Assembly: GCF_016820515.1 (NCBI RefSeq)
Contig: NZ_JADHDV010000006.1
Coordinates: 1-64,000, forward strand
Length of the DNA: 64,000 bases
Origin: Pseudoxanthomonas beigongshangi
GTDB taxonomy: Bacteria; Pseudomonadota; Gammaproteobacteria; Xanthomonadales; Xanthomonadaceae
Direction of reading: 5' to 3'
Shown piece after piece: positions 755 to 18,107 of the stretch (position 1 is its first letter; every line of letters starts with the position of its first letter). The position numbers and the translations under genes were made by a program. The notes below the pieces were generated by a model. The model ran no database searches, was not told the DNA's origin, and was given only the letters and a program-made list of their open reading frames with translations.

Positions 755-2563
755 TCAATGTGCACCCCCAAACTCCGCCTCGATCTGCTCCAGCGTCCGC
801 CCCTTGGTCTCCGGCAGCAGGAATGCCGCCACCAGGAAGTACAGCACGGTGCAGGCAGCCCAGAAGAAGAACATGCTGGCGTAGCCGTAGTGGCCGACGG
901 TGGGCAGGAAGATCGCCGCGATGGTGGTGGAGACGAACTGGTTGATCAGCAGGGCGATGCTCATGCCGTTGGAGCGGATGCGGGTGGGCATGAGTTCCGA
1001 CAGCGCCAGCCACACGCACACGCCGGGGCCGACCGCGAAGAAGGCCACGAACACCAGGATGCAGGCGGCGACCGCCCAGCCGTGTGCCGGCGACGGTACC
1101 GCGCCGAGGCTGGCACGCTCGATCACCAGCGGCGCGTGTGCCGCTTCGGCCGGATCCGGGAACGGATTCAGGTGCAGCCGGCGGAAGAAGGCTCCGATGA
1201 CGCTGTCGGCCTGCACGGTCTGGTCGCGGCGCAGGACCACCTCGGGCGCGCCGGGCGCATCGCTGCGCAGCGATCGCACGTTGCTGAAACCTCCGTAGGC
1301 GTAGGCGATGGTCAGCTGCTGCGGTCCGGTCGCGCCGTCCACACCGAGGCGGCGCCATTGCGCGGCGTCCAGTTCCAGCTTCAGCGCATCGCCGGCAATC
1401 TGCGATTGCAGCACCGGCGAGACATCGCGCTGGCCGCCTTCGGCGCGGACGAACAGCAAGGCGGCGGCCAGCAGCGCCACCGCGATGCCGCCGCTGCCGA
1501 GCATCAGCAGGAACTTGCGTCCCTTGCGATCCACCAGCACCAGCGCCACCACCGTCATCACCGCGTTGAGCACCTTGATCGCCACGTCGGCGCCGTTGGC
1601 GACCGCGCCGGGCAGACCGGCCTGGTTGAGAATGTTGACCGCGTAGGCCAGCACGGAGTTGATGCCGGTGGCCTGGGTGAAGGCGAGCACCGCGCAGGCC
1701 AGCAGGAATGGCCACACATAGCGACGGCTGAGCAGGCGGTCGCGCGCCTGCGGGCCGCCGGCGTCTTCCGGCGCCTGCATCCGTGCCAGTGTCATCTCGA
1801 CCTCGCTGGCGGGAACGGTCCGGCACAGCGCGTCGCGTGCGCGTTGGATCCGTCCACGCCGTACCAGCCAGCGCGGCGATTCGCTCAGCAGCAGCACGCC
1901 GGCGGTGAACACCAGGCCAGGCAGCAGGCAGCTCCAGAAAATCGTCCGCCACGCGTGATCCTTCGCGGCGAACAGCACGCGTTGCTGTTCGGCGGCGGCC
2001 AGTCCGCTTACCGAGGCTTCCGCCGCATCCACCGCGTGTGCGTGGTACAGGCCGATGACCGCCGCCAGCACCAGGCCGATGGTCAGCAGCAGCTGGAACA
2101 TCGCCGCGCCGCGCCCGCGCCGTTCCGGCGCGAGCACTTCGGCCAGGTACAGCGGCACCACCACGCCGATCAGGCCGCCGCTCACGCCTTGCAGCAACCG
2201 GCCGAGCAGCAGTGGTGTATAGCCGGAGGCCAGCGCCATGATCGGAATGCTGAGGGTGAACAGCAGGCCGGCCAGGAACATCGCGCCGCGCCGGCCGATC
2301 AGATCCGCGATGGCGCCGGCGAACAGCGACGAAAGCACGCTGCCCAGCAGTACCGCCGCCACCACGAAGCCGAGCTGCTGGCTGGTGAGATGCCAGCTGA
2401 TCGTGGCCGTGGCCTCCAGGTACGGCAACGCGCCGGCGATGATGCCGATGTCGATGCCATAGAGCAGGCCGCCCATGCCGGCGATGAACAGCAGGTAGCG
2501 CACCTGCCAGCGCGGAGAGGCGTCATGTGCAGGTGCGGCCAGGGTGGCGGAGGGATCGTTCAT
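755..2563 (-). CDS. MFS sugar-porter permease with large periplasmic insertion, probable GalNAc importer
   Basis: This 602-residue 12-TM transporter belongs to the sugar porter branch of MFS. The family marks are visible: GRRG near residues 90-93, SESPRWL near 227-233, DRKGRK near 345-350 and PETKG near 584-588. Typical relatives have 450-500 residues. The extra length lies mainly in a hydrophilic insert of about 120 residues (roughly 373-495) between the predicted TM9 and TM10, and in a smaller extension near 173-205. Both would face the periplasm. It is the last gene of the minus-strand operon, 83 bp after the deacetylase gene. Context suggests the role of AgaP, a GalNAc permease that replaces the PTS, but specificity cannot be read from the sequence. 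Confidence 0.85.
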   Translation of the reverse strand: MNDPSATLAAPAHDASPRWQVRYLLFIAGMGGLLYGIDIGIIAGALPYLEATATISWHLTSQQLGFVVAAVLLGSVLSSLFAGAIADLIGRRGAMFLAGLLFTLSIPIMALASGYTPLLLGRLLQGVSGGLIGVVVPLYLAEVLAPERRGRGAAMFQLLLTIGLVLAAVIGLYHAHAVDAAEASVSGLAAAEQQRVLFAAKDHAWRTIFWSCLLPGLVFTAGVLLLSESPRWLVRRGRIQRARDALCRTVPASEVEMTLARMQAPEDAGGPQARDRLLSRRYVWPFLLACAVLAFTQATGINSVLAYAVNILNQAGLPGAVANGADVAIKVLNAVMTVVALVLVDRKGRKFLLMLGSGGIAVALLAAALLFVRAEGGQRDVSPVLQSQIAGDALKLELDAAQWRRLGVDGATGPQQLTIAYAYGGFSNVRSLRSDAPGAPEVVLRRDQTVQADSVIGAFFRRLHLNPFPDPAEAAHAPLVIERASLGAVPSPAHGWAVAACILVFVAFFAVGPGVCVWLALSELMPTRIRSNGMSIALLINQFVSTTIAAIFLPTVGHYGYASMFFFWAACTVLYFLVAAFLLPETKGRTLEQIEAEFGGAH

Positions 2564-2646
2564 TCGGATGCCGGTCCTGTCGATTCATGCGCGCAAGGCG
2601 CGGGAAACACCGGCACGGGCGTACCGGTGCGGAGAACGAAAGCGGA

Positions 2647-3762
2647 TCAGCCCAGCGGAATCGCGTCGCCTTCGACGAACACCTGCCGCACCTGAAGTTG
2701 CGGATCCAGGACCACCAGATCCGCCCACGCACCGGCCTGCACGCGGCCGCGATCGATCAGGCCCAGGTAGTCGGCCGGATAACGCGAGAGGCGGTTGGAG
2801 GCATCGGCGACATCGAGTCCCAGCGAGACCAGGTTGCGCAGCGCCTGATCCATGGTCAGCGCGCTGCCGGCCAGCGAACCGGCCGCCAGCCGCACGCAAC
2901 CCAGGCACTTGAACACGCGCTGCGAACCCAGCGCGTATTCGCCATCGGGCATGCCGGTGGCGGCGGTGGCGTCGGTGACGCAGTACAGGCGTGGAATCGC
3001 CCGCAGTGCAGTGCGGATCGCACCGGGATGCACGTGCTTCAGGTCCGGAATCAGTTCCGCGTACTCGGCATGCGCGAGCGCGGCGGTGGCGATGCCCGGA
3101 TGATAGTGGTCCACGCCGGTCATGCCGTTGAACAGATGGGTGAAACCGGCGGCGCCGGCCCGCAGCGCGGCCACGCCGTCCTCGTAGCTGCCGGCGCTGT
3201 GGCCCAGCTGCACGCGGATGCCGAGTTGGTTGAGCTGCGGAATCAGCGCCTGGTGCGCGCCGATTTCCGGTGCGAGGGTCAGTACCCGGATGGGCGCCAG
3301 CGTGTGCAGGCGGCGGACCTGGTCGAGCGTTGCCTCGACCACCAGCGGCGGCTGCGCGCCCAGCCGCTCGATGCTGATGTAGGGGCCTTCCAGGTGCACG
3401 CCCAGCACCCGCGCCATGCCTTCGTCGCGCTTGGCGATGGCCGGCGCGAGGCCTTCCAGCGCCTGCGCGATGTCGTCCTCGTGCGCGGTCATGGTGGTGC
3501 CCAGCAGCGCGGTGGTGCCGTGGCGCGCATGCGCGCGGGCCACGGTGCGCGCGGCGTCGCCGCCCTGCATGATGTCCACGCCGTCGCCGCCGTGCACGTG
3601 CAGGTCGACGAAGCCGGGCAGGATCAGCGGCTCGTCGCCGTCGCCTTCGCCGGCATCCGGCGCGGGATGGAGCGCACGCACGCGCTGGTCGAACTCGATG
3701 GTTCCGCGCATCCAGCCGTCGGCGGTGAGGATGCGGCCCTGCAACGCGCGTGTCGCGGTCAT
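2647..3762 (-). CDS. agaA: N-acetylgalactosamine-6-phosphate deacetylase (NagA/AgaA family)
   Basis: The 371-residue amidohydrolase has the full NagA set of motifs: HVHGGDG near residue 55 (metal-binding HxH), HLEGPY, QLGHSAG, THLFNGMTG and the catalytic Asp in VTDATAATGMPDG. It removes acetate from an N-acetylhexosamine-6-phosphate. The neighbours AgaS and AgaZ point to GalNAc-6-P rather than GlcNAc-6-P, so I place it with the AgaA type. This is inference from context, because sequence alone does not separate the two well. Its ATG at 3762 overlaps the TGA of the regulator gene by 4 bp, which indicates translational coupling within the operon. Confidence 0.88.
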   Translation of the reverse strand: MTATRALQGRILTADGWMRGTIEFDQRVRALHPAPDAGEGDGDEPLILPGFVDLHVHGGDGVDIMQGGDAARTVARAHARHGTTALLGTTMTAHEDDIAQALEGLAPAIAKRDEGMARVLGVHLEGPYISIERLGAQPPLVVEATLDQVRRLHTLAPIRVLTLAPEIGAHQALIPQLNQLGIRVQLGHSAGSYEDGVAALRAGAAGFTHLFNGMTGVDHYHPGIATAALAHAEYAELIPDLKHVHPGAIRTALRAIPRLYCVTDATAATGMPDGEYALGSQRVFKCLGCVRLAAGSLAGSALTMDQALRNLVSLGLDVADASNRLSRYPADYLGLIDRGRVQAGAWADLVVLDPQLQVRQVFVEGDAIPLG

Positions 3763-4538
3763 GGCGGTGGTGGCTCGGCGATGATCACTTCGATGCCCAG
3801 TCGCTGCAGTCCTTCGCGGTACTCGGCGCTGATGCCTTCGTCGGTGATGATGGTGTGGATCTGATCCAGGCGGGCGATGCGATGCAGGCTGACCCGGCCG
3901 AACTTGGAGGCGTCGGTCAGCACCACGATGCGGCGTGCACGCTCGACCATGCGATGGTTGAGGCTGGCTTCGGCCTCGTGGTGGGTGGTCAGGCCGAATT
4001 GCAGGTCCAGGCCGTCCACGCCGAGGAACACGGTATCGAAGCTGTAGGTGTTGAGGCTGGCCTCGGCCTGGCTGCCGTGCAGCGACAGCGACTGCTTGCG
4101 CAGCAATCCGCCGGTCAGCAGCAGTTCCACGCCAGGCGCGTTGGCCAGTTCCCAGGCGATGTTCAGGCCGTTGGTCATCACGGTGACGTCGCGATGATCG
4201 CGCAGGTGCCGCGCCAGGGTCATCGTGGTCGAGCCGGAGTCGATGATGATGTTGTCGCCGGGCTTGACCAGGCGCGCGGCGTGCGTGCCGATGGACTCCT
4301 TCAGCGGATGGTTGAGCGCGTCCTTCTCGTGGATGTCCTGCTCGGTCGGCGGTGTGCGCACCAGGGTGGCGCCGCCGTGGTTGCGGGTGGCCAGGCCCTG
4401 CGATTCGATGTGGGTCAGGTCGGCGCGGATGGTCACCGACGACACCTCGAAGCGATCCACCAGATCCGCGACCTGCACGTTGCCGTGCTGGACCAGCAGC
4501 TGGAGGATCTGTTGCCGGCGTTGGCGGGTATTGCGCAT
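3759..4538 (-). CDS. agaR: DeoR-family transcriptional repressor (AgaR-like)
   Basis: This is a 259-residue protein with an N-terminal winged helix (about residues 1-60, starting MRNTRQRRQQILQLL) and a C-terminal DeoR sensor domain with the sugar-phosphate motif region IIDSGSTT. A longer open frame extends upstream, but the family begins at this Met, so 4538 is chosen. The gene sits in the middle of the operon it probably controls. AgaR-type repressors bind CTTTC-containing repeats and respond to phosphorylated amino sugars. Such repeats are present in the divergent control region at 8029-8361. The effector is likely an intermediate of the pathway such as GalNAc-6-P or tagatose-6-P (inference). 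Confidence 0.85.
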   Translation of the reverse strand: MRNTRQRRQQILQLLVQHGNVQVADLVDRFEVSSVTIRADLTHIESQGLATRNHGGATLVRTPPTEQDIHEKDALNHPLKESIGTHAARLVKPGDNIIIDSGSTTMTLARHLRDHRDVTVMTNGLNIAWELANAPGVELLLTGGLLRKQSLSLHGSQAEASLNTYSFDTVFLGVDGLDLQFGLTTHHEAEASLNHRMVERARRIVVLTDASKFGRVSLHRIARLDQIHTIITDEGISAEYREGLQRLGIEVIIAEPPPP

Positions 4539-4575
4539 GACGGACCTGTGGACGTTCGGAAGCGGAACCGGAAGC

Positions 4576-5910
4576 TTACCGTTCCGAAAGCGCGCTGGCT
4601 GCGGAAGTTTCGTTTCCGGACCGCGAACCCGCCTGGTTGCGGGCACAGGCACGGGCGTACTCGCCCAGCCGCAGGGCGATCCGGTGCTGGATCAGCGCCA
4701 GCGGATCGGCGGTGAGGGTGCCGGCTTCGATGGCGCGCTGCTGTTCGGGCAGGAACTGGCTGAGCAGGATCATCGGCGGCGCGTGCCGGCGCAGGTTGGC
4801 AACCAGGCGATCCACCGCCACCCTTACCTCCGGCTCGCCCCAGTAGTAGCGGCAGCGATCGCTGAGCGCGTAGCGGCGCAGCAGGCGCAGTTCGGCCGGG
4901 TCGCCGCTGTAGTGGTTCTGCCAATGCTTCGGCTTCTCCACCATGCAGCGATCCAGCACCTCGGGCAGATGCGAGCGTTCGGCTTCCGGCAGCAGTTCGT
5001 CCTCGATCGCCGCCAGCGCGAACAACGCCTCGCGATAGGCGAAGGTGGCGGCCGGGCCGACCTTGAGGATGGCGAAGTGATCCCGTACCAGCGCATGCAG
5101 CGCGGCTTCGGTCTGGTAGTCGGTGGAGTGCGCCTCGAACACGATGCGCGGCTGGGTCTGGACGAAATCCGACAATGCGGTGGCGGCGACCGGGTCGTAG
5201 CCATGCACCTGGCTGTGATCGAAATCCACGCCCGGCTGCACCACCATCGCGATGACCCGTTCCCAGGCCGGGGTCAGTTCCGGCGTGGAAAATGCCTGGC
5301 GATGGATTTCCAGCGTGCGCGCGGCGGCGGCCGGCGTGGTGACCGCCAGACCGCCTTCCAGCGAAGCCTCGCCGCCGGGCACCGGCACTTCCGTGCCGAT
5401 CACGTAGACCGGCGTCGGCAGCCCGGCGTCGGCGGCGGCGCGCTCGGCGATGACGGCCAGTTCGGCCGAGCGCGCGGCGACGATTTCGTCCGGCAGCGGA
5501 TGCGGATCGCCGGCGCAGGACATGCTGCAGTCCAGATGGATCTTGTGGAAACCGGCGGCAACGTAGGCGGCGATCAGATCGCGCGCGTGCGCCATCGCCT
5601 GTTCGGCCGGGAGCTTCTGCCAGGCGTTGGGCCCCAGGTGATCGCCGCCGAGGATCAGGCGATCGGCGGGAAAGCCCTGCTGGCGTGCCAGCGTTTCGAC
5701 ATAGGCGCGGAACTGCACCGGATTCATGCCGGTGTAGCCGCCGAACTGATCAACCTGGTTGGAGGTGGCTTCGACCAGCAGCACCGTGTCGTACCGCCGC
5801 GCGACCTGCATCGACGCCAGCAATACCTGCTCGTTGCTGGAGCAGATGCTGTACAGGCCGACGTTTTCGCCTTTGCGATGCGCGGCAATCAGGGATTGGA
5901 CAGCGGACAC
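4576..5910 (-). CDS. agaZ: AgaZ/GatZ/KbaZ-family protein of tagatose-6-phosphate metabolism
   Basis: This is a 444-residue member of the GatZ/KbaZ/AgaZ family. It starts with the typical MSAVQSLIAAHRKG and carries GLYSICSSNEQVL, VLLVEATSNQVDQFGGYTGM and LILGGDHLGP. The family was described both as a non-catalytic partner of class II tagatose-1,6-bisphosphate aldolase and as the tagatose-6-phosphate kinase of GalNAc pathways. Here no AgaY/KbaY aldolase partner is present, so the kinase reading is more useful for this locus (inference). Length is normal. It lies 38 bp upstream of the regulator and 20 bp downstream of the ROK kinase. Confidence 0.87.
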   Translation of the reverse strand: MSAVQSLIAAHRKGENVGLYSICSSNEQVLLASMQVARRYDTVLLVEATSNQVDQFGGYTGMNPVQFRAYVETLARQQGFPADRLILGGDHLGPNAWQKLPAEQAMAHARDLIAAYVAAGFHKIHLDCSMSCAGDPHPLPDEIVAARSAELAVIAERAAADAGLPTPVYVIGTEVPVPGGEASLEGGLAVTTPAAAARTLEIHRQAFSTPELTPAWERVIAMVVQPGVDFDHSQVHGYDPVAATALSDFVQTQPRIVFEAHSTDYQTEAALHALVRDHFAILKVGPAATFAYREALFALAAIEDELLPEAERSHLPEVLDRCMVEKPKHWQNHYSGDPAELRLLRRYALSDRCRYYWGEPEVRVAVDRLVANLRRHAPPMILLSQFLPEQQRAIEAGTLTADPLALIQHRIALRLGEYARACARNQAGSRSGNETSAASALSER

Positions 5911-5930
5911 GGAACAGCCTCCGGGAAATA

Positions 5931-6854
5931 TCAGGAAATCGGGTGGTGCTGGCGCGCCAGCAGCGCCGCGCCGCGCGCGCCGCCGGCATCGCCGAACACC
6001 GGCGGCAGGATCGGTGGCACCCGCACGCCGGTGAACAGATGGGCGGCGATCGCCGCCGGCAGTTCGCGGTACAGACGCTCGTCCTTGGACAGGCCGCCGC
6101 CCAGCACGATGACGTGCGGGTCGATGGCCAGGATCAGGCTGGCCAGCGCGTGGCCGAGCAGATCCCGGTGCACGTCGAGCGCCTGCGCGGCTAGCGCGTC
6201 ACCCTGGCCCGCGCGCGCGATGATGGTCGCGGCATCGCCGTCGCCACCGAGGTGGCGATGGATCATCGCCAGCCCACCGCCGGAGACGTAGCGCTCCACG
6301 CAGCCGCGCAGGCCGCAGGCGCAATCGATCACCGGCAGGCCGTGTTTCGCCAGCAGGTGTGCGGCGACGCTCCAGTGACCCCATTCGCCGGCGATGCCGT
6401 TGTAGCCATCGATCAGCCGGCCTTGCACGCAATAACCGCCGCCTGCGCCGGTGCCGAGGATGGCGCCGAACATGCTGGGCTGGCCATCGGCCGCGCCGCC
6501 ATGGGCCTCGGACAGGGCGAAGCATTGCAGGTCGTTGCCGAAGTGCAGCGGCTGCGCGATTCGCGCCTGCAGATCGCGGCCAACGGTCTGGCCGCTCAGC
6601 GCCGGCACGTTGGCGCTGAGCTGGCGGCCGCTGGCGCGATCGACCACGCCGGGCAGACCGATGCCGATCGCCTGCGCCGGCTGGCCGAGTTCCGTCCCGA
6701 CTTCGCCAATCAGGCTGGCGACGGCGTGCAGGAAGGCCGGATAGTCGCGCGTGGGCGTGTCGATGCGGCGGCGGTGCAACACCTGCAGGCGCGCATCGCA
6801 GGCAACCAGTTCGATCTTGGTACCGCCGATGTCGATGCCGTAGTAGTGCTGCAT
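5931..6854 (-). CDS. agaK: ROK-family sugar kinase, probable GalNAc kinase
   Basis: The 307-residue protein opens with the ATP-binding GIDIGGTKIEL, followed by GIGLPGVVD, the catalytic GNDLQCFALSEA, the GEWGHW motif, and the ROK zinc site CACGLRGCVE. All key positions are intact. A longer frame extends upstream, but the family starts at MQHYYGIDIGG, giving 6854. In an operon with a deacetylase, AgaS and AgaZ, the expected reaction is GalNAc + ATP to GalNAc-6-P. GlcNAc or fructose kinases share these motifs, so specificity is inferred from context. It lies 13 bp after agaS. Confidence 0.87.
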   Translation of the reverse strand: MQHYYGIDIGGTKIELVACDARLQVLHRRRIDTPTRDYPAFLHAVASLIGEVGTELGQPAQAIGIGLPGVVDRASGRQLSANVPALSGQTVGRDLQARIAQPLHFGNDLQCFALSEAHGGAADGQPSMFGAILGTGAGGGYCVQGRLIDGYNGIAGEWGHWSVAAHLLAKHGLPVIDCACGLRGCVERYVSGGGLAMIHRHLGGDGDAATIIARAGQGDALAAQALDVHRDLLGHALASLILAIDPHVIVLGGGLSKDERLYRELPAAIAAHLFTGVRVPPILPPVFGDAGGARGAALLARQHHPIS

Positions 6855-6867
6855 GGCCAGCTCCGGA

Positions 6868-8028
6868 TCAGCCGTGAGCGTGGATGACCACGCCCTGCAC
6901 GACACGGTTGACCGTGCCGTCGGGGAAGGGGTTGTCGGGGGTCAGGCCGAGCGCGGCCGACCGGCGCAATGCGTAGCGCTGCGCCAGGGTCAGCCATACC
7001 GGCGCCAGCCAGGGATCCGGCAGCGACGGCACCGCGAGCGGGAAATCGTCCGCCGCGCCGTCCTCCGCGCGTGGACCGACCGACAGCACGCGTCCGGCCA
7101 CGCCGTCGCGACGCAGTTCGTCCAGCAGATCCTGTTCGTAGCGGCGGGCCACCGGCTGCGCGCTGCGCATCATGACCACCAGCGTGTCGGCGTCCAGCGT
7201 CGATTTCGGTCCGTGGCGGAAACCGAGCGGCGTATTGGCCAGCGCCAGCACGCGGCCCGCGGTCAGTTCCAGTACTTTCAGCGCCGCTTCGCGGGCGAGT
7301 GCTTCCAGCGGGCCGCTGCCCAGGTAGATCACGCGCGAGAAGGCGCCGTCACCGGCCAGCGCGGTGACCGCGCGTTCCCAGTCGGCGAGCGCGCGCCGGC
7401 CCAGCGCGGCCACCGTGTGCAGTTGTTCCAGGCGTTGCTCCCAGGGAGCACGATCGAACACCGCCAGCGCCGCCAGTTGCATGCAGGTCAGGCTGCTGGT
7501 CATCGCGAACGCGCGATCGCAGCTGGCCGGCGGCATCAGCAGGGTCAGCGTGTCGTCGCGGCCACGTCCGCGGCGCGCGAGTTCGCCTTCGCTGTTGCAG
7601 GTGATGTCGAGGAAACGGCTCAGGGCCACGCGTTCGCGCACCAGATCCACGGCGGCGATGCTTTCCGGACTGGAACCGCTGCGGCCGAACGACACCAGCA
7701 GGGTGGGGCGTTCGCGTTCCAGGTACAGATCCGGATGGGTCAGCAGATTGGTCGTATGCAGTGCGCGCACGTCGGCGGGCCACTGCGCGTTGATGATGTC
7801 GGCGACCATTTCGGCGATGAAACCGGAACTGCCGGCGCCGGTGAAGATCACGCGATGGCCGGGTTGGCGCAGCCAGTCGCCGAGGAACGCATCGATGGCG
7901 GCCTGCCGGTCGGCCAGGGCTTTCGCCAGCGCATCCCACAACGCGGGTTGCTGGGCGATTTCTTCGGCGGTGTGGTGTCCGCCGAGGGGCTGCCAGGCGG
8001 ACAAGTCGGAAAGCAGAGGAGCGTCCAT
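6868..8028 (-). CDS. agaS: AgaS-type galactosamine-6-phosphate deaminase/isomerase (SIS domains)
   Basis: This 386-residue protein has two SIS domains, about residues 45-200 and 215-350. Phosphosugar-binding loops FTGAGSSGF (62-70) and SFGRSGSSPES (113-123) are seen, and GFRHGPKS lies in the second domain. The N-terminus (TAEEIAQQPALW) is typical of AgaS. AgaS converts galactosamine-6-P to tagatose-6-P and ammonia. It is the first gene of the minus-strand operon, behind a consensus-like AGGAA ribosome site. The 333-bp divergent region upstream carries DeoR-type repeats, so it should be repressed without GalNAc. Confidence 0.9.
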   Translation of the reverse strand: MDAPLLSDLSAWQPLGGHHTAEEIAQQPALWDALAKALADRQAAIDAFLGDWLRQPGHRVIFTGAGSSGFIAEMVADIINAQWPADVRALHTTNLLTHPDLYLERERPTLLVSFGRSGSSPESIAAVDLVRERVALSRFLDITCNSEGELARRGRGRDDTLTLLMPPASCDRAFAMTSSLTCMQLAALAVFDRAPWEQRLEQLHTVAALGRRALADWERAVTALAGDGAFSRVIYLGSGPLEALAREAALKVLELTAGRVLALANTPLGFRHGPKSTLDADTLVVMMRSAQPVARRYEQDLLDELRRDGVAGRVLSVGPRAEDGAADDFPLAVPSLPDPWLAPVWLTLAQRYALRRSAALGLTPDNPFPDGTVNRVVQGVVIHAHG

Positions 8029-8361
8029 TCATCGTTCCTGTTGGGCATGCGCACGATCTGCGTTTTCTTTCGAAATGTCAAATATCGAAAGATATTGGAA
8101 AGTTAGATGTGGCTAGCATTTTTCCACTTTCGGGATCGAAATCGCCCTACGGGTGCGATCGGAGATTGTCCTGTTAAGCGTCTTGAAGGGGTTGTGGCGA
8201 AAATGAATAGCGGGTTCTGAAAGTATTGCTTCGCAACAACTTTCGATATCCAGTAAATATCCTTCTTTTTTCTTTGCAATTTGTTGACATATTTCGAGAC
8301 GCTGCCCTAGAGTCGGCCGCAATGGTTTCGTACTCCCGCTCACGCGGGCCTGGGGAGCAAG
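8029..8361. promoter_or_regulatory. Divergent control region of the GalNAc locus with DeoR-type operator repeats
   Basis: This 333-bp non-coding, AT-richer region separates agaS (minus) from the GH31 gene (plus). It holds several CTTTC/GAAAG words typical of AgaR/DeoR operators: CTTTCG at 8067, ATATCGAAAG at 8082-8091, GGAAAG at 8097, CTTTCG at 8127, and CTTTCGATAT at 8240-8249. The 8082 and 8240 words are exact 10-bp inverted copies about 150 bp apart, an arrangement suited to repressor looping. The regulator encoded in the operon is the obvious candidate to bind here. Confidence 0.6.
8284..8313 (+). promoter_or_regulatory. Putative sigma-70 promoter of the GH31-TonB receptor-GH109 genes
   Basis: A perfect -35 TTGACA (8284-8289) is followed after 18 bp by TAGAGT (8308-8313), a fair -10. 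The start of transcription would fall near 8320, about 40 bp before the GH31 start and about 70 bp downstream of the CTTTCGATAT operator word at 8240. Confidence 0.5.
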
Positions 8362-11300
8362 TTGGAAACCCACGTTTGGCATCGCTGCAACCGCTTCGTC
8401 GCCCTCGCCTTGCTGGCGTTCGCCGCGAGTGCGCCCGCCTTTGCCGAAAACGTCGGCAACGTGCGCACCCTGCAGGCCGCGCCGGCGCGTGATGGCACGC
8501 CCGGCTGGGATATCACCACCGACAGCGGCGCACGGGTACGCGTGGACCTGCTGCGTGCCGACACCCTGCGCGTGCAGGCCGGCCGCCAGGGCAAGCTGAC
8601 GCCCGCCGGCGACAAGGCCGCGCCGATCGTGTTGCCGCAACCGGCGGGCAAGGTCGATTTCGCTTTCGAGGAGGACGCGCAGGAAGCGCGCATCCGCACC
8701 GGCGAGCTGGTGCTGCGTATCCAGCGCCAGCCGCTGCGCCTGTCGCTTGGGCGCGTGGCCGGCGATCAGGTCACGCCGCTGTGGCGCGAGTTGCAGCCGC
8801 TGGATCTGGACGCGCAGCAGAGCGTGCAGGTGCTGTCCAGCGAGGCAGGCGAACACTTCTACGGCGGCGGGCAACAGAACGGCCGCTTCGAGTTCAAGGG
8901 TCGCGAACTGGAAATCGCCTACTCCGGTGGCTGGGAGGAAGGCGATCGCCCGAGTCCCGCGCCGATGCTGTTGAGCTCGCGCGGCTGGGGCATGCTGCGC
9001 AATACCTGGAGCGACGGCAATTACGATCTGCGCCAACCGGACCAGGCCACCCTGCTGCACCGCGAGGACCGTTTCGATGCCTACTACTTTGTCGGCGCCG
9101 GCCTGCACGAACTGCTGGATCGCTACACCGCGCTGACCGGTCGTCCCGGATTGCTGCCGCGCTGGGCGCTCTCCTACGGCGACGCCGATTGCTACAACGA
9201 CGGCGACAACAGGAAGAAACCCGGTACCGTGCCCGAAGGCTGGAGCGATGGCCCGACCGGCACCACGCCGGACGTGATCGACAGCGTCGCCCGCAAATAC
9301 CGCGAGCACGACATGCCCGGCGGCTGGATCCTGCCCAACGATGGCTACGGCTGCGGCTACACCGATCTGCCCAAGGTCGTGCAGGGCCTGGCGCGCTACG
9401 GCTTCCGGACCGGGCTGTGGACCGAGAACGGTGTCGACAAGATTGCATGGGAAGTCGGCAAGGCCGGCAGCCGCGTGCAGAAGCTGGACGTCGCCTGGAC
9501 CGGCAAGGGCTACCAGTTCGCGATGGACGCCAACCAGTCCGCCTACAACGGCATCCTGGACAACTCCGACTCGCGCCCGTTCCTGTGGACGGTGATGGGG
9601 TGGGCCGGCATCCAGCGCTATGCGGTGGCCTGGACCGGCGACCAGAGCGCCAGCTGGGACTACATCCGCTGGCACATCCCGACCCTGATCGGTTCCGGCC
9701 TGTCGGGCATGGCCTACGCCACCGGCGATGTGGACGCGATCTTCGGCGGCAGCGCCGAGACGTACACCCGCGATCTGCAATGGAAGAGCTTCACCCCGGT
9801 GCTGATGGGCATGTCCGGCTGGTCGTCGGGCGCGCGCAAGCACCCGTGGTGGTTCGACGAGCCGTACCGCAGCATCAATCGCGACTACCTCAAGCTGAAG
9901 ATGCGCCTGACCCCGTACATGTACGGGCTGGCGCGCGACGCGGAAACCACCGGCGCGCCGATCGTGCGCGGCCTGATGTGGGATTACCCGGCCGATCCGC
10001 AAGCGTGGACCGAGGCGCACAAGTACCAGTTCCTGCTCGGCCGCGAACTGCTGGTCGCGCCGGTCTACCGCAGCCAGGCCGCCAGCCGCGGCTGGCGCCG
10101 CGACATCCACCTGCCACAGGGCCGCTGGATCGACTACTGGGATGGCCGCCAACTGCAAGCCGACGCGAACGGCCGACGCATCGATCGCCAGGTGGAACTG
10201 GCGACCCTGCCGCTGTTCGTGCGCGCCGGCGCGATCCTGCCGATGTATCCGGAGATGCTGTACGACGGCGAGAAGCCGCTGGACGAACTGACCCTGGATC
10301 TGTATCCGCAGGGCGAGTCGAGCTACACCTTGTACGAGGACGACGGCAACACCCGCCGCTACTCCAAGGGCGAGTTCAGCGAACAGGCCATCCGCATGCG
10401 CGCGCCCGCGCAGGGCAGCGGCGAGGTGCGCGTCGAAATCGATCCGGTGCGTGGCCAGTACGCCGGCCAGCTGCCGCAGCGCCGCTATGCGCTGCGCGTG
10501 CTGAGCCGGACGAAGCCGAACGCGGTGGAACTGGACGGCCGCGCGCTGCCGCCACTTGCCGATCGCGCCGCCTTCGACGCCGGCGCCGAAGGTTGGTACT
10601 TCGATGCGAAGGAGCGCCGCGGCACCGTGCATGTGCGTAGCGCGCCCACCGACATCCGCCGCGCGCTGGCGTTCCGGCTGGACATCCCGGTCGCCGCGAC
10701 GCCGGCCGACGATGCCTTCCCGGCCGCGCCGGAACTGGGCCGCGCGTTGCCGGCCGACAGCCTGCTGGTGGTCAATCGTCCCGCCGAGGAACCCGGGCAT
10801 CCGCTTGAGAACGCCTTCGACGACGATCCGGCTACCTGGTTCCGCACCGTGCGCAACCAGGCCGTGCGCACCGGCGCGCACGAGTGGACGCTCGGTTTCG
10901 GCGAACGCCGCCTGATCGACGGCATCGAACTGGCGCCGCGTACCGACCAGCACTGGAAACACGGCCAGGTGCGCGACTACGAAATCTACCTGGCCGACAG
11001 CAACGGCGAATGGGGTGAGCCGATCGCGCGTGGCCGCCTGAAGCTGGAACAGGGCACGCAGACGATCAGTTTCGCGCCGCGCGCCGGCCGCCTGCTGCGT
11101 TTCCGCGTGCTGAGCACGCAGAATCCCGACGGTGACGGCGCCGCCGGCAGCGATCCGATGGTGACGGCGGCGCAGGCCGGCACCGCGCGCGCATTCGATG
11201 CCTTGCAGCCGCGCGAGGTCGGGCCGATCACCCTGTCCACCTTCCGCGTGCTCGAACACCAGGATGCCGAGCGTCCGGCGCAGCAGCGTTATCTGTCCGA

Positions 11301-11715
11301 ACTCGAATCGCCGGCCGGCGCCGCGCGGGATCGCGCCTTCGGCGGCCAGGCCGAGATGCGCATGAACGGTCTGCATTTCCGCCGCGGCCTGGGCGTGGGT
11401 GCGGAAAGCCGCATCGATATCGAACTGAAAGGCGGCTGGCGCCTGCTGCGCGCCGACCTCGGCATCGACGACAGCTGCCGCGAGGCCGGCGGCATGCAGT
11501 TCCAGGTCTGGGGTGACGATCGCCTGCTGTACGACAGCGGGATGGTGCGCGCGCCGGGCGTGGTCAAACCCGAACTCGACATCCGCGGCCTGCACCGCCT
11601 GAGCCTGCGCACCCTCGGCGCGCAGGGCGCGCGGCCGGCGCAGGTCTGCGGCAACTGGGCCAATGCTGTCCTGATGGGACAGGAGGGCGATACCGCCACC
11701 ATTTCCCCGCCATAA
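8362..11715 (+). CDS. Secreted GH31 glycosidase with C-terminal carbohydrate-binding modules, probable alpha-N-acetylgalactosaminidase
   Basis: The 1117-residue protein starts at TTG 8362 behind GGGGAG, and has a signal peptide ending near AFA (residue 28). A GH31 N-terminal beta domain is followed by the catalytic barrel. The likely nucleophile is Asp376 in KLDVAWTG and the acid/base is Asp427 in AWTGDQSASW. After the barrel come the GH31 beta-sheet domains, an F5/8-type (CBM32-like) segment around residues 800-905, and an NPCBM-like domain near 985-1105. The catalytic sequence resembles the GH31 group (subfamily 18) known to cleave alpha-GalNAc, rather than classic alpha-glucosidases. The AgaS/AgaZ neighbours support this. 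Substrate is inferred; an alpha-galactosidase is the main alternative. Confidence 0.8.
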   Translation: METHVWHRCNRFVALALLAFAASAPAFAENVGNVRTLQAAPARDGTPGWDITTDSGARVRVDLLRADTLRVQAGRQGKLTPAGDKAAPIVLPQPAGKVDFAFEEDAQEARIRTGELVLRIQRQPLRLSLGRVAGDQVTPLWRELQPLDLDAQQSVQVLSSEAGEHFYGGGQQNGRFEFKGRELEIAYSGGWEEGDRPSPAPMLLSSRGWGMLRNTWSDGNYDLRQPDQATLLHREDRFDAYYFVGAGLHELLDRYTALTGRPGLLPRWALSYGDADCYNDGDNRKKPGTVPEGWSDGPTGTTPDVIDSVARKYREHDMPGGWILPNDGYGCGYTDLPKVVQGLARYGFRTGLWTENGVDKIAWEVGKAGSRVQKLDVAWTGKGYQFAMDANQSAYNGILDNSDSRPFLWTVMGWAGIQRYAVAWTGDQSASWDYIRWHIPTLIGSGLSGMAYATGDVDAIFGGSAETYTRDLQWKSFTPVLMGMSGWSSGARKHPWWFDEPYRSINRDYLKLKMRLTPYMYGLARDAETTGAPIVRGLMWDYPADPQAWTEAHKYQFLLGRELLVAPVYRSQAASRGWRRDIHLPQGRWIDYWDGRQLQADANGRRIDRQVELATLPLFVRAGAILPMYPEMLYDGEKPLDELTLDLYPQGESSYTLYEDDGNTRRYSKGEFSEQAIRMRAPAQGSGEVRVEIDPVRGQYAGQLPQRRYALRVLSRTKPNAVELDGRALPPLADRAAFDAGAEGWYFDAKERRGTVHVRSAPTDIRRALAFRLDIPVAATPADDAFPAAPELGRALPADSLLVVNRPAEEPGHPLENAFDDDPATWFRTVRNQAVRTGAHEWTLGFGERRLIDGIELAPRTDQHWKHGQVRDYEIYLADSNGEWGEPIARGRLKLEQGTQTISFAPRAGRLLRFRVLSTQNPDGDGAAGSDPMVTAAQAGTARAFDALQPREVGPITLSTFRVLEHQDAERPAQQRYLSELESPAGAARDRAFGGQAEMRMNGLHFRRGLGVGAESRIDIELKGGWRLLRADLGIDDSCREAGGMQFQVWGDDRLLYDSGMVRAPGVVKPELDIRGLHRLSLRTLGAQGARPAQVCGNWANAVLMGQEGDTATISPP

Positions 11716-11861
11716 CCCGCTCCACAAAAAAGTTTCACGTCGTCTCCCCCGCCTAGTGACTGCGGCCCGTTGGCCGTGGCCCGGGACCGCTGTTGCCTCA
11801 CGCAAGCCCATCCACCACAGCAGCGCCGCGCGCTGCACCCCCGAAACGAGGAGAGAACCCG

Positions 11862-14840
11862 ATGTCGTCCGCAAGCCGCCGCCAACGCTGTATATCCATC
11901 ACGCCACTGGCCTTCGCGCTGGGCACGGCGCTCGCCATGACCGGCACGGTCGCGGCGCAGACCGTCGAGACGCCGAAGGAAGACGGCAAGGCCACCGAAC
12001 TGGCCCGCATCGAGGTCACCGGTTCCAACATCAAGCGCACCGACGTCGAGACCGCTTCGCCGGTGCAGATCATCAGCCGCCAGGACATCGAGAACATGGG
12101 TGCGCGCACCCTGTTGCAGGTGCTGGACAACCTGCCGGCCGCGCGCCCGGCGCAGCAGGACTTCAAGTCGCTGTTTACCGGCTCGGACGGCGCATCGCAG
12201 GCCAATCTGCGCGGCATGGGCGCGCAGGGCACGCTGGTACTGCTCAATGGCCGCCGCCTGTCGTACTACGGCGCGCCGGCGGGTTTCCAGACCCAGTTCG
12301 TCAACATCGACGCGATTCCCGCCGCGGCGATCGAGCGGATGGAAGTGCTGACCGACGGCGCCTCGGCCGTGTACGGCACCGATGCAATCGCCGGCGTGAT
12401 CAACGTCATCACCAAGAAGTCCTACCAGGGCCTCGAGGTCAACCTGACCACCGACAGCTCCTCCCGCATCACCAGCTATGGCGAACACCAGGCCAGCATC
12501 ACCGGCGGCTTCGGCAACCTCGACGAGGATCGCTACAACGTCTACGCCTCGCTGAACCTGTATCGGCGCGACCCGATCCCGCTGAGCGACTGGTACGACA
12601 AGAAGCCCGGCCAGTACTACGTCAATAATCCGAACTACATCAACAATTTCCGCCTGGGTACCGGCAGTGCGCCGGGCACGTTCAATCCCGGCAGCTACTT
12701 CGCCTTCGATCCGGTCACCGGCCGGCGCGTGCAGGAAGCCGCACCGGGTTGCCAGAACGTGGTCGTCGAGGCCGCCGGTCCCCGTTGCATCTGGCAGACC
12801 TGGATGAACAACGAGATTGACGCGGGCGCGAAGTCCGAGCGCATCACCGCCTACGTCAATGCCCACTTCCTGATCGGCGAAACCACCGAGGCCTTCGCCG
12901 AGGCGACCTACACCGACATCGATCTGCGCGCCAACGGCGGCACGCCGCGTGCATTCGGCACCACCACCGGCAATCCGACCAGCTGGTTCGCCCGCAATAC
13001 CGGCACCAACGTCAACCAGTTCTTCTACCCCTACCTGGGCCCGAACAACGTCTACAACCACGCCAGTCCCGAACTGCGCGCGCTGATGGGCGGCGTGGTC
13101 GGCCTGCAGTACCTGATGCAGGACGTGGGCAAGAACCACTTCGGCCAGCGCAACACCGACAAGAGCTACCGAGGCCTGGCCGGCCTGCGCGGCAGCTTTG
13201 GTGACTGGAACTGGGAAACCGCGTTCGCCACCGCCGGCACGCATTCGGTCACCTACCAGACCGTCAACGTCAACCTGGACGGTTTCGCCCGGGCGTTCGG
13301 TCCGTTCACCGTCGATCCGGGCACCGGCCGCGTGATCATCTCGGACAATCCCGCCTACCGGTTCGGCGAGATCAGCGAGGCCAACGCGAAGCTGCTGCGC
13401 GAGGCCTACCCGACCTTCGACATCCAGTCCTGGACCCGCCTGCACACCCTGGACGGCAAGGTCGAAGGCCCGCTGTTCAACCTGCCCGCCGGCGAAGTAC
13501 GCGCGGCCTTCGGCTTCAACGTCAGCCGCGAGACCTTCTATACGCCGGGCAATACGGATGCGGCCAACGGCAAGATCACCCAGCAGGGCGGTTCGTGGTT
13601 CGACGGCAAGCGCACCACCAGCGCGCTGTTCGCCGAAGTCGTGGCCCCGCTCACCGAGAAGCTGGAACTGGATGCGGCGCTGCGCGTGGACAAGTACCCG
13701 AACTTCGACGCCAACATCGCGCCGAAGATCGGCCTGAAGTACCAGGCGCTGCCGACGGTGATGCTGCGCGGCACCTACTCGGAAGGCTTCCGCGCACCGA
13801 GCCTGGCTGAAGCCGGCACCGGCGGCGTGTTCGCCCAGCTGGGCGGATTCGAGGACGACATCCGCTGCGACGAGACCAACGCGATCGCCAACCTGCTGTT
13901 GCAGTCGAATCGCCCGGGCGACGTCGATCTCGGCAATTCGCTGCTCAACGCCGACTGCAGCCGCACCGTGGCGCGCATGACCCAGCCGAACCAGAACCTG
14001 CAGCCGGAGAAAGCCAAGATCGCCACACTGGGCGTGGTGCTGGAGCCGTTCGACTGGCTGTCGGTGTCGGCCGACTACTGGTTCATCTACCGCCGCAACC
14101 AGATCGCCGCGCCGGACTACAGCAAGGAAACCGACATCGTGTCGATGACCCGCAATCCGATCACCGATAGCGACCGCGCCGCGGAAGCCGCGGTGGCGGC
14201 GATGTGCGCGGATCCGGCCAGCGGAGTGACCTGCCCGGGCACGCTGCCCACCTACAGCGTGGGCAACGTGGCCAGCGTGGTAGGCCAGTACAAGAACCAG
14301 GGCCGCACCCTGATCGATGGTTTCGATGTCGATGCGCGCGGTCATTTCCCGCTGGGCCAGTGGGGCGAGCTGAATGTCGGCGTGGCCGCGACCATCGCGC
14401 GCCGCAACGAGGCGTATCTGGACGATGAAACCCGCTGGTACTACGGCAACACGATCGGCTACTACGGCAACCCGCGTCTTCGCGCCACCTTGAATGCCGA
14501 CTGGACCTACGGCGAGGTGACCACCAGCTTCTTCGTCAACTACGTCGGCAAGACCAAGTGGGCATGGGACCGGGTCGATGCGCAGGACAACTCGCCGGAA
14601 ACCTGCACCGCCGGATCGCTGCCGGTGGATCCGGACAACTGCAATGGCGTGCCGGCCTGGTGGACCGCCAACCTGGGCCTGTCCTGGCGTCCGGATGACC
14701 ACTGGCACGCCGGCTTCACCATCAAGAACCTGTTCAACCGGATGCCGTTCTACGATCCGAACAGCTTCCTGGGTGATTCCAGCGACTATGCCAGCATCTT
14801 CGGCCGCAGCTACAGCTTTACCGTAGGCTACAAGTTCTGA
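11862..14840 (+). CDS. TonB-dependent outer-membrane receptor for the GalNAc-glycan locus
   Basis: The protein has 992 residues from ATG 11862, behind GAGGAGAG; a longer frame upstream lacks a signal peptide. The signal peptide (about residues 1-36) ends in VAAQ. A plug domain follows, with VTGSNIKR, VQIISRQDIENMG, LLNGRRLSYYG and DGASAVYGTDAIAGVINVIT. The C-terminal beta-barrel ends in FTVGYKF with the terminal Phe expected for BAM recognition. It is of the Xanthomonad oligosaccharide-receptor type (N-terminal SNIKR, about 1000 residues), not an iron-siderophore type. It lies 146 bp after the GH31 gene and 53 bp before the GH109 gene, so it probably imports GalNAc-containing oligosaccharides. 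Confidence 0.9.
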   Translation: MSSASRRQRCISITPLAFALGTALAMTGTVAAQTVETPKEDGKATELARIEVTGSNIKRTDVETASPVQIISRQDIENMGARTLLQVLDNLPAARPAQQDFKSLFTGSDGASQANLRGMGAQGTLVLLNGRRLSYYGAPAGFQTQFVNIDAIPAAAIERMEVLTDGASAVYGTDAIAGVINVITKKSYQGLEVNLTTDSSSRITSYGEHQASITGGFGNLDEDRYNVYASLNLYRRDPIPLSDWYDKKPGQYYVNNPNYINNFRLGTGSAPGTFNPGSYFAFDPVTGRRVQEAAPGCQNVVVEAAGPRCIWQTWMNNEIDAGAKSERITAYVNAHFLIGETTEAFAEATYTDIDLRANGGTPRAFGTTTGNPTSWFARNTGTNVNQFFYPYLGPNNVYNHASPELRALMGGVVGLQYLMQDVGKNHFGQRNTDKSYRGLAGLRGSFGDWNWETAFATAGTHSVTYQTVNVNLDGFARAFGPFTVDPGTGRVIISDNPAYRFGEISEANAKLLREAYPTFDIQSWTRLHTLDGKVEGPLFNLPAGEVRAAFGFNVSRETFYTPGNTDAANGKITQQGGSWFDGKRTTSALFAEVVAPLTEKLELDAALRVDKYPNFDANIAPKIGLKYQALPTVMLRGTYSEGFRAPSLAEAGTGGVFAQLGGFEDDIRCDETNAIANLLLQSNRPGDVDLGNSLLNADCSRTVARMTQPNQNLQPEKAKIATLGVVLEPFDWLSVSADYWFIYRRNQIAAPDYSKETDIVSMTRNPITDSDRAAEAAVAAMCADPASGVTCPGTLPTYSVGNVASVVGQYKNQGRTLIDGFDVDARGHFPLGQWGELNVGVAATIARRNEAYLDDETRWYYGNTIGYYGNPRLRATLNADWTYGEVTTSFFVNYVGKTKWAWDRVDAQDNSPETCTAGSLPVDPDNCNGVPAWWTANLGLSWRPDDHWHAGFTIKNLFNRMPFYDPNSFLGDSSDYASIFGRSYSFTVGYKF

Positions 14841-14850
14841 CGAAACAAAC

Positions 14851-14868
14851 GCGCCGGTCCGCCGGCGC
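14851..14868 (+). other. Intercistronic hairpin between receptor and GH109 genes
   Basis: GCGCCGG and CCGGCGC form a perfect 7-bp stem with loop TCCG, 10 bp after the receptor stop. There is no T-run, so it is not an intrinsic terminator. It may protect the receptor mRNA 3' end or set different expression levels within the operon. Confidence 0.4.
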
Positions 14869-14893
14869 CCTGTCACAGGGAGTCCCACTGCAA

Positions 14894-16249
14894 ATGAAAC
14901 GTAGAGAGTTCATCCTCGCGGGAGCCGCGCTCGGCGCGGCCACCCTGCTGCCGAGCACGCCGGCCTGGGCCAGCAAGCGCAAGATCCGGCTGGGCATGAT
15001 CGGCACCGGCATGCGCGGCCAGGTCCTGCTGAAGGAGCTGCTGCGCCGCGAGGACGTGGAAGTGGCCGCGCTGTGCGACATCGAGCCGATCATGCTCAAG
15101 CAGGCGCTGGACATGGCCGCCAAGGCGGGCAAGCCGGCGCCGAAGGCATACGGACAGGACGGCGACACGCATGCCTACCGTCGCCTGCTCCAGCAGCGCG
15201 GCCTGGACGGCGTGATCATCGCCACGCCGTGGGAATGGCACGCACCGATGGCGATCGAGGCGATGGAAGCCAAGGTGGCGGTCGGCTGCGAAGTCGTCGC
15301 CGGCATCACCCTGCAGGATCACTGGGACGTGCTGGCCGCGCAGCAGCGCACCGGCACGCCCTACATGCTGCTGGAAAACGTGTGCTACCGCCGCGATGTG
15401 ATGGCGGCGCTGCAGATGGTGCGGGCCGGCCTGTTCGGCGAACTGGTCCACCTGCAGGGCGGCTACCAGCACGATCTGCGCGCGGTGAAATTCAACTCCG
15501 GCAATCCGGCCGAACCCTATGGCAGCGGCGTGGAATTCGGTCCCAAGGGCTGGTCGGAGGCACGCTGGCGCACCGAGCATTCGGTCCGCCGCAACGGCGA
15601 GCTGTATCCCAGCCATGGTATCGGCCCGTGCGCCATGTACACCGGCATCAACCGCGGCAACCGCTTCACCCACATCAACAGTTTCGCCACCAAGGCGCGT
15701 GGCCTGCACGAGTACACCGTGGCCAAGAGCGGCGGCACGACCCATCCCAGCACGCAGGCGAAATTCAAGCTCGGCGACGTGGTCACCACCACCCTGGCCT
15801 GCGAGAACGGCGAGACCATCCTCCTCCAGCACGACACCTCGCTGCCGCGTCCGTACTCGCTGGGGTTCCGCGTGCAGGGCACCAGGGGCCTGTGGATGGA
15901 TCTCAACCAGTCCATCCACATCGAGGGCCGCAGTCCGGGGCACAAGTGGGAACCGTTCCAGGCCTACCAGGACGAGTTCGACCATCCGTTGTGGCGCAAG
16001 TACGCGCAGGATGCGGAAGGTGCCGGCCACGGCGGCATGGACTACTTCGTCATCCACGCCTTCGTCGAGGCGGTGAAGGCCGAGGCGCCGATGCCGATCG
16101 ACATCTACGACGCGCTTGCCTGGAGCGCGATCACGCCGTTGTCGGAGCAGTCCATCGCCGAAGGCTTCAAGACCCTGGAATTCCCGGATTTCACCCAGGG
16201 CCTGTGGAAGTCCCGCAAGCCGATCTTCGCCTTCGACGCGAAGTATTGA
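14894..16249 (+). CDS. Tat-exported GH109 alpha-N-acetylgalactosaminidase (Gfo/Idh/MocA fold)
   Basis: The 451-residue protein begins MKRREFILAGAALGAATLL, a twin-arginine signal with a cleavage site near AWA (residue 26). A Rossmann NAD-binding motif GMIGTGMRGQ follows. The GH109 marks are seen: CDIEP, TPWEWHAPMAIEAME, NVCYRRDVMA, YPSHGIGP and GGMDYFVIHAFVEA. GH109 enzymes cleave alpha-GalNAc by an NAD-dependent redox mechanism, so folding with cofactor in the cytoplasm before Tat export makes sense. Length matches the family (about 440-460). It is the last plus-strand gene of the locus and works with the GH31 enzyme on the same kind of linkage. Confidence 0.9.
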   Translation: MKRREFILAGAALGAATLLPSTPAWASKRKIRLGMIGTGMRGQVLLKELLRREDVEVAALCDIEPIMLKQALDMAAKAGKPAPKAYGQDGDTHAYRRLLQQRGLDGVIIATPWEWHAPMAIEAMEAKVAVGCEVVAGITLQDHWDVLAAQQRTGTPYMLLENVCYRRDVMAALQMVRAGLFGELVHLQGGYQHDLRAVKFNSGNPAEPYGSGVEFGPKGWSEARWRTEHSVRRNGELYPSHGIGPCAMYTGINRGNRFTHINSFATKARGLHEYTVAKSGGTTHPSTQAKFKLGDVVTTTLACENGETILLQHDTSLPRPYSLGFRVQGTRGLWMDLNQSIHIEGRSPGHKWEPFQAYQDEFDHPLWRKYAQDAEGAGHGGMDYFVIHAFVEAVKAEAPMPIDIYDALAWSAITPLSEQSIAEGFKTLEFPDFTQGLWKSRKPIFAFDAKY

Positions 16250-17908: not shown

Positions 17909-17943
17909 CTGCCTTGCGCATTCGCTGGGTGAAACCGGGCTGA

Positions 17944-17990
17944 ATTGTACCGGTTTGCAAACAAACATTCATGCATGTATATTTCGCGCC
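17944..17990. promoter_or_regulatory. Putative SmeT-type operator and divergent promoter region
   Basis: An AT-rich block lies between the repressor and pump genes. It contains the tandem CAAACAAACATT and an imperfect palindrome ACATTC-ATGCAT-GTATAT (about 17966-17983), similar in style to the SmeT pseudo-palindrome of Stenotrophomonas. Its position would block promoters in both directions. Exact promoter elements are not clear. Confidence 0.5.
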
Positions 17991-18069
17991 CTGCACTGGA
18001 CCCAGCCGGATGCCGCGCTCCGCGAGTAGCCAGGCCCGGTGCTCGTTTCCCGCTTTTTGACGGCCACTT

Positions 18070-18107
18070 GGCGCCGATAAGGCGCCTTTTAGCCGCCAAT
18101 TGGCGCC
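18070..18107 (+). promoter_or_regulatory. Terminator-like hairpin and alternative palindrome in the smeD leader
   Basis: GGCGCC (18070-18075), loop GATAA and GGCGCC (18081-18086) are followed by TTTT (18087-18090), giving a short intrinsic-terminator shape. Right after it, CGCCAATTGGCG is a perfect 12-bp palindrome overlapping a third GGCGCC (18102-18107). The three copies could form mutually exclusive stems. This lies 27-64 bp before the smeD start, so it could act as an attenuator or simply be hairpin clutter. Confidence 0.4.

Follow-up and report, generated by a model that had tools for sequence, protein, structure and literature searches.

In the textbook route for N-acetylgalactosamine (GalNAc), tagatose-6-phosphate (tagatose-6-P; P is phosphate throughout) is phosphorylated and then split by an aldolase. 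The published texts differ on the role of AgaZ and its relatives KbaZ and GatZ, which are described as kinases (PMC12118421, PMC4694137), as helpers of an aldolase (PMC3668189) or as epimerases (PMC11907403). According to a comparison of gut genomes, a single GalNAc pathway has been described, leading through tagatose-6-P to glyceraldehyde-3-P and dihydroxyacetone-P (PMC5583593). An Escherichia coli strain no longer formed tagatose once gatZ was deleted; the phosphatase gene hxpA combined with gatZ or kbaZ restored production, whereas gatZ alone did not, nor did fbaA, kbaY or gatY combined with hxpA (PMC11907403). GatZ and KbaZ, the E. coli relatives of AgaZ, epimerise fructose-6-P to tagatose-6-P, and enzymes of Agrobacterium and Sinorhizobium are cited for the same conversion (PMC11907403). 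The present analysis concerns a nine-gene locus at positions 755-16249 of a window of 64,000 nucleotides from Pseudoxanthomonas beigongshangi (assembly GCF_016820515.1, contig NZ_JADHDV010000006.1, positions 1 to 64,000). Judged from its genes, it is probably a GalNAc catabolic locus controlled by AgaR, in which GalNAc would reach fructose-6-P through AgaZ alone, without a tagatose kinase or aldolase. The literature search found no account of the locus in Xanthomonads, nor of a GalNAc pathway whose last step is an epimerisation to fructose-6-P, and an earlier mention may exist.

The agaZ gene (4576..5910, minus strand), whose product is the predicted tagatose-6-P 4-epimerase of the GatZ/KbaZ family, gave a near full-length match to PF08013 (6.5e-184) and exceeded the cut-off of TIGR02810, a model annotated as the non-catalytic subunit of class II tagatose-bisphosphate aldolase. 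It is the single GatZ-family gene of the genome, whose size is 4.23 Mb and whose completeness is given as 100%. The profile search of this genome detected no class II aldolase (PF01116; AgaY/KbaY/GatY) over the cut-off and no match to the DeoC/LacD aldolase family. One class II aldolase candidate elsewhere in the genome, with 20.1 bits in a frame of 171 amino acids, was rejected as being by eye a universal-stress-type protein. Also the kinases gave a negative result, as none of the eight PfkB-family matches in the genome reached the lacC or 1-phosphofructokinase (1-PFK) cut-off. The best models of these eight were fructokinase, ribokinase (three), nucleoside kinase, KDPG-aldolase/sugar-kinase fusion, pyridoxine kinase and HMP kinase, and only the HMP kinase passed its own cut-off. 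Because no partner aldolase was found in the genome, AgaZ most likely works alone, and the predicted epimerisation of tagatose-6-P to fructose-6-P is the most economical reading. The first-pass annotation of the window had the locus covering every step to tagatose-6-P; the enzymes for this are present, but AgaZ was placed too early in the route, AgaS already being the predicted producer of tagatose-6-P, and the end of the pathway, where the class II aldolase partner of AgaZ is not found in the genome, was overlooked.

The same situation was met across the family. Scans for PF08013 and PF01116, which had the same genome number and handles and were taken as one sample, found the AgaZ family in 72 of the 297 Lysobacteraceae genomes, with one match each, and a class II aldolase over the cut-off in three (G018, G120 and G131), none of them among the 72. 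AgaZ is retained in 72 genomes where its supposed aldolase partner was not found. The residues corresponding to Cys20, Glu44, Asp87, His88, Glu171, His257 and Lys279 of GatZ had the same letters in all 72 AgaZ sequences, including both of the locus types distinguished below.

These data bear on two other explanations of the pathway end. According to the first, the locus is the same GalNAc locus, AgaZ is the tagatose-6-P kinase that earlier publications had proposed, and the class I fructose-bisphosphate aldolase cleaves the resulting tagatose-1,6-bisphosphate. AgaZ is indeed listed as a (proposed) tagatose-6-P kinase in a review of 2025 (PMC12118421) and in PMC4694137, its nearest structures in the PDB, 2fiq and 3txv, carry the names 'putative' and 'probable tagatose 6-phosphate kinase', and the class I aldolase present in the genome fits such a kinase. 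We nevertheless consider this very unlikely: GatZ/KbaZ was the one family that AgaZ matched in Pfam and NCBIfam, with no kinase family among the matches, its conserved residues correspond to the metal and base residues discussed for an aldolase-like epimerase, and its E. coli relatives epimerise in vivo (PMC11907403). According to the second, AgaZ is a relic or helper, and the housekeeping pyrophosphate-dependent phosphofructokinase (PPi-PFK) and class I aldolase, both present in the genome, take tagatose-6-P to trioses unaided; for Streptococcus suis without agaZ, Pfk or LacC has been suggested as the replacement (PMC4694137). The conservation of AgaZ, with 133 of the 444 columns invariant in the alignment of the 72 sequences in addition to the seven residues kept throughout, is not what a relic would show, and also this explanation appears unlikely.

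Epimerisation by AgaZ alone has to be weighed against several observations that speak for caution. The single PFK match of the genome is of the PPi-dependent type; the glycolytic aldolase belongs to class I and has an open frame throughout (the TGA in the match is its stop codon). These two enzymes may act on tagatose phosphates. Two AgaZ-bearing genomes had class II aldolase matches below the cut-off, the 20.1-bit match of the window's own genome and one of 21.8 bits in G063, the sequence inspected being that of the window's genome only. As only 3 of the 297 genomes of the family have a class II aldolase over the cut-off, the lack of one in all AgaZ-bearing genomes does not point to avoidance. 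Furthermore, a class II aldolase was present in 31 of 40 genomes from other families that carry GatZ. These 40 came from a scan of the phylum in which 52 of 398 genomes matched, seven partial matches (at most 35.5 bits) and five genomes of the window's family being set aside. The aldolase was located within 10 kb of the GatZ gene in 11 of them and elsewhere or on another contig in 20, while nine had no match (G497, G338, G487, G490, G516, G546, G558, G561 and G637). Paired and unpaired GatZ proteins both exist, then, the unpaired ones also beyond the Lysobacteraceae, and these nine genomes are further candidates for a lone epimerase.

The gene content makes it very probable that the sugar used is GalNAc, because a separate cluster of the N-acetylglucosamine (GlcNAc) type sits elsewhere in the genome. 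AgaR, a DeoR-family repressor (3759..4538, minus strand), matched the AgaR equivalog NF040755 with 343 bits against a cut-off of 260. AgaS, a SIS-domain galactosamine-6-P deaminase/isomerase (6868..8028, minus strand), matched TIGR02815 (1e-119), with 3c3j and 3odp as its nearest PDB entries. The ROK-family sugar kinase, a predicted GalNAc kinase (5931..6854, minus strand), matched PF00480 (6.7e-67), and the NagA/AgaA-type N-acetylhexosamine-6-P deacetylase (2647..3762, minus strand) reached 226.6 bits with TIGR00221, the cut-off being 225.65. The aga-pathway set of AgaR, AgaS, deacetylase, sugar kinase and AgaZ is hence found in one cluster; AgaR, AgaS and AgaZ have, to our knowledge, no place in the known GlcNAc route. 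Two points call for care: AgaS scored 400 bits, below the 529-bit cut-off of TIGR02815, and the kinase and deacetylase were nearest to GlcNAc enzymes among solved structures in the PDB sequence search.

The GlcNAc-type cluster (L206 3109-7889, contig C56) lies about 165 kb from the locus on the same contig and contains a NagP-like MFS transporter, a LacI regulator, a NagB-II-like deaminase and a NagA. The transporter exceeded the cut-off of the gluP subfamily and matched the NagP model below its cut-off, the deaminase reached 340 bits against a cut-off of 430, and the NagA passed TIGR00221 and is 41% identical to the deacetylase of the window. In having a transporter, regulator, deaminase and NagA the two clusters are alike, forming parallel layouts for different amino sugars, whereas the nag regulator belongs to the LacI family and the nag deaminase and transporter come from other families than their counterparts in the window. 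With this cluster present, a GlcNAc locus was rejected as an explanation of the window genes. The two NagA copies found in the genome are those of the two clusters, and with the other copy lying in the GlcNAc-type cluster, the copy in the window is probably the deacetylase dedicated to the present locus. The choice of GalNAc over GlcNAc in the first-pass annotation is well supported by the AgaR equivalog, by the hydrolase matches and by the GlcNAc-type cluster on the same contig.

The two hydrolases are encoded on the plus strand. The GH31 enzyme (8362..11715), with F5/8C and NPCBM domains, matched 6m76, 7f7r and 7f7q, which are structures of GH31 alpha-N-acetylgalactosaminidases, with E-values of 9e-110 to 1e-108 in the PDB sequence search, and the next GH31 group with 1e-52. 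The catalytic Asp, which is Asn in the 7f7r chain, is kept as Asp in the window protein, and the motifs KLDVAW and TGDQ are kept in all 46 GH31 matches of the family loci that were fetched. Its CAZy subfamily is presumably GH31_18. The GH109 enzyme (14894..16249) combines the GFO/IDH NAD-binding fold (PF01408) with the GH109 C-terminal domain (PF21252, 6.2e-81), and its nearest structure is the alpha-N-acetylgalactosaminidase 2ixa (E 2.7e-145). By eye, GH31 has a Sec-like N-terminal signal peptide and GH109 the twin-arginine-like signal MKRREF.

It is possible, and to us tentatively worth keeping, that the locus serves a galactosamine-bearing bacterial or environmental glycan and not animal-type O-glycans, the intracellular chemistry being the same. 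The Pfam scan found no other glycosidase, and in particular no sialidase or galactosidase, and no peptidase among the nine genes, and the carriers among the best 80 of at least 556 relatives were Lysobacteraceae and Burkholderiales, neither of which we know as gut mucin specialists. Set against this, both GH31 and GH109 match enzymes named alpha-GalNAcases, and in Bacteroides thetaiotaomicron the only one of the substrates compared on which the GH31 acted was de-sialylated submaxillary mucin (mainly Tn), and the GH109 acted on structures of the Tn, Forssman and blood group A types (PMC11992087). This difference in substrates means that two such enzymes can divide the work. Mucin is a candidate substrate of the locus. 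The pairing of two unrelated alpha-GalNAcases put forward in the first-pass annotation has in B. thetaiotaomicron its precedent, but both enzymes occur together, within the stretches fetched, in only 28 of the 50 other loci of the window's type, making the pair an option rather than a rule.

Uptake is predicted to involve two membrane proteins. The TonB-dependent outer-membrane receptor (11862..14840, plus strand; PF00593 and PF07715) was accompanied by no SusD-like lipoprotein among the nine genes and the next gene (Pfam), and the locus lacks to this extent the SusC/SusD pair of the Bacteroidetes type. The MFS sugar-porter permease (755..2563, minus strand; 602 amino acids; Pfam Sugar_tr 1.7e-84, TIGR00879 over the cut-off), whose predicted fold is nearest to the STP, GLUT and XylE sugar transporters, is the predicted inner-membrane GalNAc porter. 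Between its membrane helices 9 and 10 by our own count it carries an inserted beta-rich domain of about 120 amino acids (1079..1438, minus strand), which was present in 25 of the 25 homologues aligned (without L201, whose reading frame has 35 amino acids). The domain gave no Pfam match (two proteins), no PDB sequence match and a best fold match with an E-value of 0.88. It is predicted to be periplasmic, and it is possibly a periplasmic sugar-capture domain.

Put together, the receptor would bring GalNAc-bearing glycopeptides or oligosaccharides into the periplasm, where terminal alpha-GalNAc would be freed by GH31 and GH109 and the released GalNAc would cross the inner membrane via the MFS porter. 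The ROK kinase would then convert GalNAc to GalNAc-6-P, the NagA paralogue would deacetylate it, AgaS would convert galactosamine-6-P to tagatose-6-P, and AgaZ alone, as a metal-dependent 4-epimerase, would form fructose-6-P, which would join central metabolism at the same entry point as GlcNAc.

All nine genes are intact open reading frames identified through a profile or PDB match each, and the inventory of the first-pass annotation, with frames at or very near the places it gave, held throughout. Also its division into two divergent gene sets was confirmed by the strands: the minus-strand set runs from the centre outward as agaS, ROK kinase, agaZ, agaR, nagA and MFS, with agaR and nagA overlapping by four bases, and the plus-strand set as GH31, TonB receptor and GH109, a putative operator lying between the two.

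The distribution of the locus was followed through AgaZ. Seventy-one of the 72 AgaZ loci were fetched with their surroundings, the 72nd being the window itself, and compared with the nine window proteins; gene counts are matches of more than 35% identity within the stretches fetched, and AgaZ is present in every locus by design, as the loci were found through it. The window type comprised 50 of the 71 other loci, with AgaZ 72-95% identical, so that the locus is not particular to one genome. In these 50 loci ROK was found in all, AgaR and AgaS in 49 each, GH31 in 46, the TonB receptor in 43, NagA in 37, GH109 in 31 and MFS in 22, and all nine genes in 20. GH31 occurred together with GH109 in 28, without GH109 in 18, and GH109 without GH31 in three. 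Five of the stretches are shorter than 19 kb and at contig ends, where the absence of a gene means little. One locus without a receptor match (L065) has by eye another large exported protein beside GH31.

A second comparison used named loci, the best 80 of at least 556 relatives with flanks of 10 kb, which can miss GH109; L127, L132 and L185 had no GH109 match within these flanks, whereas L103, L099 and L107, loci from genomes with contigs of equal length, had one. All nine genes were present in 41 of the 80. The nine-gene loci included those in records titled Pseudoxanthomonas, Stenotrophomonas, Lysobacter, Luteimonas and Vulcaniibacterium, and outside the family those of Paucibacter sp. Y2R2-4, Duganella sp. 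CF402 and a metagenome-assembled genome of Burkholderiales. Among these 80, the closest named relative was Pseudoxanthomonas sp. z9, with 95% identity in AgaZ. The comparison of gene order across the family that the first-pass annotation had called for showed the order and strands recurring in other genera and in another order, and the gene set is therefore not a product of chance. Protein identities across the recurring loci reached 99% at the upper end and fell to about 50% in some receptors, kinases and distant loci. The system is a conserved unit beyond one order, with GH31 near-core and GH109 optional. A contig titled Bacillus subtilis SK7B5 (L142) also had all nine genes, at Stenotrophomonas-like identities; this record is probably mislabelled or contaminated.

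Just upstream of agaS lies a palindrome of 25 bp, CTTTCGAAATGTCAAATATCGAAAG (8067..8091). In 49 of 50 window-type loci (the window included, L070 being the exception, and L098, a short contig with no agaS match, excluded) the pattern CTTTC-N15-GAAA[AG] lay no more than 100 bases upstream of agaS, and it had no such match in any of the 21 loci of the second type. Read on a single strand, these loci (1.37 Mb) contained 49 copies in total. The chance mean in the window was 0.04, and one of 100 shuffles had as many matches. From this conservation we infer that AgaR binds the palindrome, which is its predicted operator. A genome-wide AgaR regulon was not supported, as the core CTTTCG-N13-CGAAAG with at most one mismatch occurred at 12 places against 14 for the reversed control; exact matches numbered two in the genome, one being the palindrome at the locus. 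The only promoter-like site between 500 and 17300, a weak sigma-70-like candidate for the GH31-receptor-GH109 set, is at 8284..8313 on the plus strand; shuffles averaged 1.8 such sites, and the promoter scan of this region and the terminator scan were no better than shuffles.

The remaining 21 of the 71 fetched loci (L076 and 20 further ones among L055-L113) formed a second type, type B, in which AgaZ is 51-53% and AgaS 42-47% identical to the window proteins. An AgaR-like match was present in 20 of the 21, and the NagA, ROK, MFS, GH31 and GH109 proteins of the window had no match in any; one locus (L062) had a 29% match to the window receptor. L076 was scanned with profiles, L057 was viewed by eye only, and the other 19 are known only through the window proteins. 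The scan of L076 (4422-17759) identified a TonB receptor, an Amidohydro_2 protein, a melibiase-type enzyme, AgaZ, a SIS-domain AgaS, a BadF-type kinase and a Melibiase_2-NPCBM enzyme, and by eye a small permease was seen. The melibiase-type enzyme was nearest to 8x1b and 9awt (blood-type-A alpha-D-galactosamine galactosaminidase; E 3e-66); the two glycosidases are taken by us, from their Pfam families, to be GH36 and GH27. On these genes, type B fits the use of deacetylated galactosamine rather than of GalNAc. The two types exclude each other in the sample of 72 genomes because each genome has a single AgaZ-family match.

Taken more broadly, we lean slightly towards the view that bacteria have another route for galactosamine sugars, which would end at fructose-6-P and not at trioses, with AgaZ alone epimerising tagatose-6-P. 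Two mutually exclusive versions of it would exist in the Lysobacteraceae: the GalNAc version, with GH31/GH109, a ROK kinase and NagA, and the version for deacetylated galactosamine, with a GH36 galactosaminidase-like enzyme and a BadF-type kinase but no NagA nearby. GatZ/KbaZ proteins would be epimerases first, the enterobacterial pairing with class II aldolase being a special case.

The DNA beyond GH109 contains a Phenol_MetA_deg protein (Pfam; 16368-17162, minus strand), on the strand opposite to GH109 and between it and a set of efflux genes. These genes (17240-23918), named by eye as a TetR-type regulator and an RND efflux system of membrane fusion protein, pump and outer-membrane factor, adjoin the locus and are apparently unrelated to it.

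The Lysobacteraceae provide a natural test of the AgaZ role, the 72 sampled genomes keeping AgaZ with no class II aldolase over the cut-off. If the proposed pathway is true, fructose-6-P is the entry point of GalNAc as well as of GlcNAc, AgaZ carries a wrong standard annotation in these genomes, and the gene set can supply enzymes that remove alpha-GalNAc and epimerases that make tagatose.

In comparison with known systems, the locus resembles the B. thetaiotaomicron polysaccharide utilisation locus BT4240-50 together with BT3169-GH31 in releasing alpha-GalNAc, as predicted here, by GH109 and GH31 and in having an MFS transporter and a GalNAc kinase (PMC11992087). In B. thetaiotaomicron, however, the GH31 lies outside that locus, a SusC/SusD pair, a GH2 and an M60-like peptidase are used, and the kinase is described as belonging to a phosphotransferase-enzyme family and not to ROK as here; that text contains neither the word tagatose nor the word isomerase (PMC11992087). 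With E. coli GatZ/KbaZ and the epimerases of Agrobacterium and Sinorhizobium, AgaZ shares the Pfam family over nearly its full length and the active-site residues, but those enzymes are tied to galactitol use or tagatose production, whereas here AgaZ belongs to a GalNAc-type operon in genomes with no class II aldolase over the cut-off. The aga pathway of Shewanella and E. coli is alike in its regulator, deaminase/isomerase, deacetylase, kinase and AgaZ, with AgaR belonging to the same NCBIfam equivalog. The present system differs from it in having neither an AgaY/KbaY class II aldolase nor a LacC-type kinase over the cut-off in the genome, and in that its locus includes a TonB receptor and two alpha-GalNAcases that are predicted to be exported.

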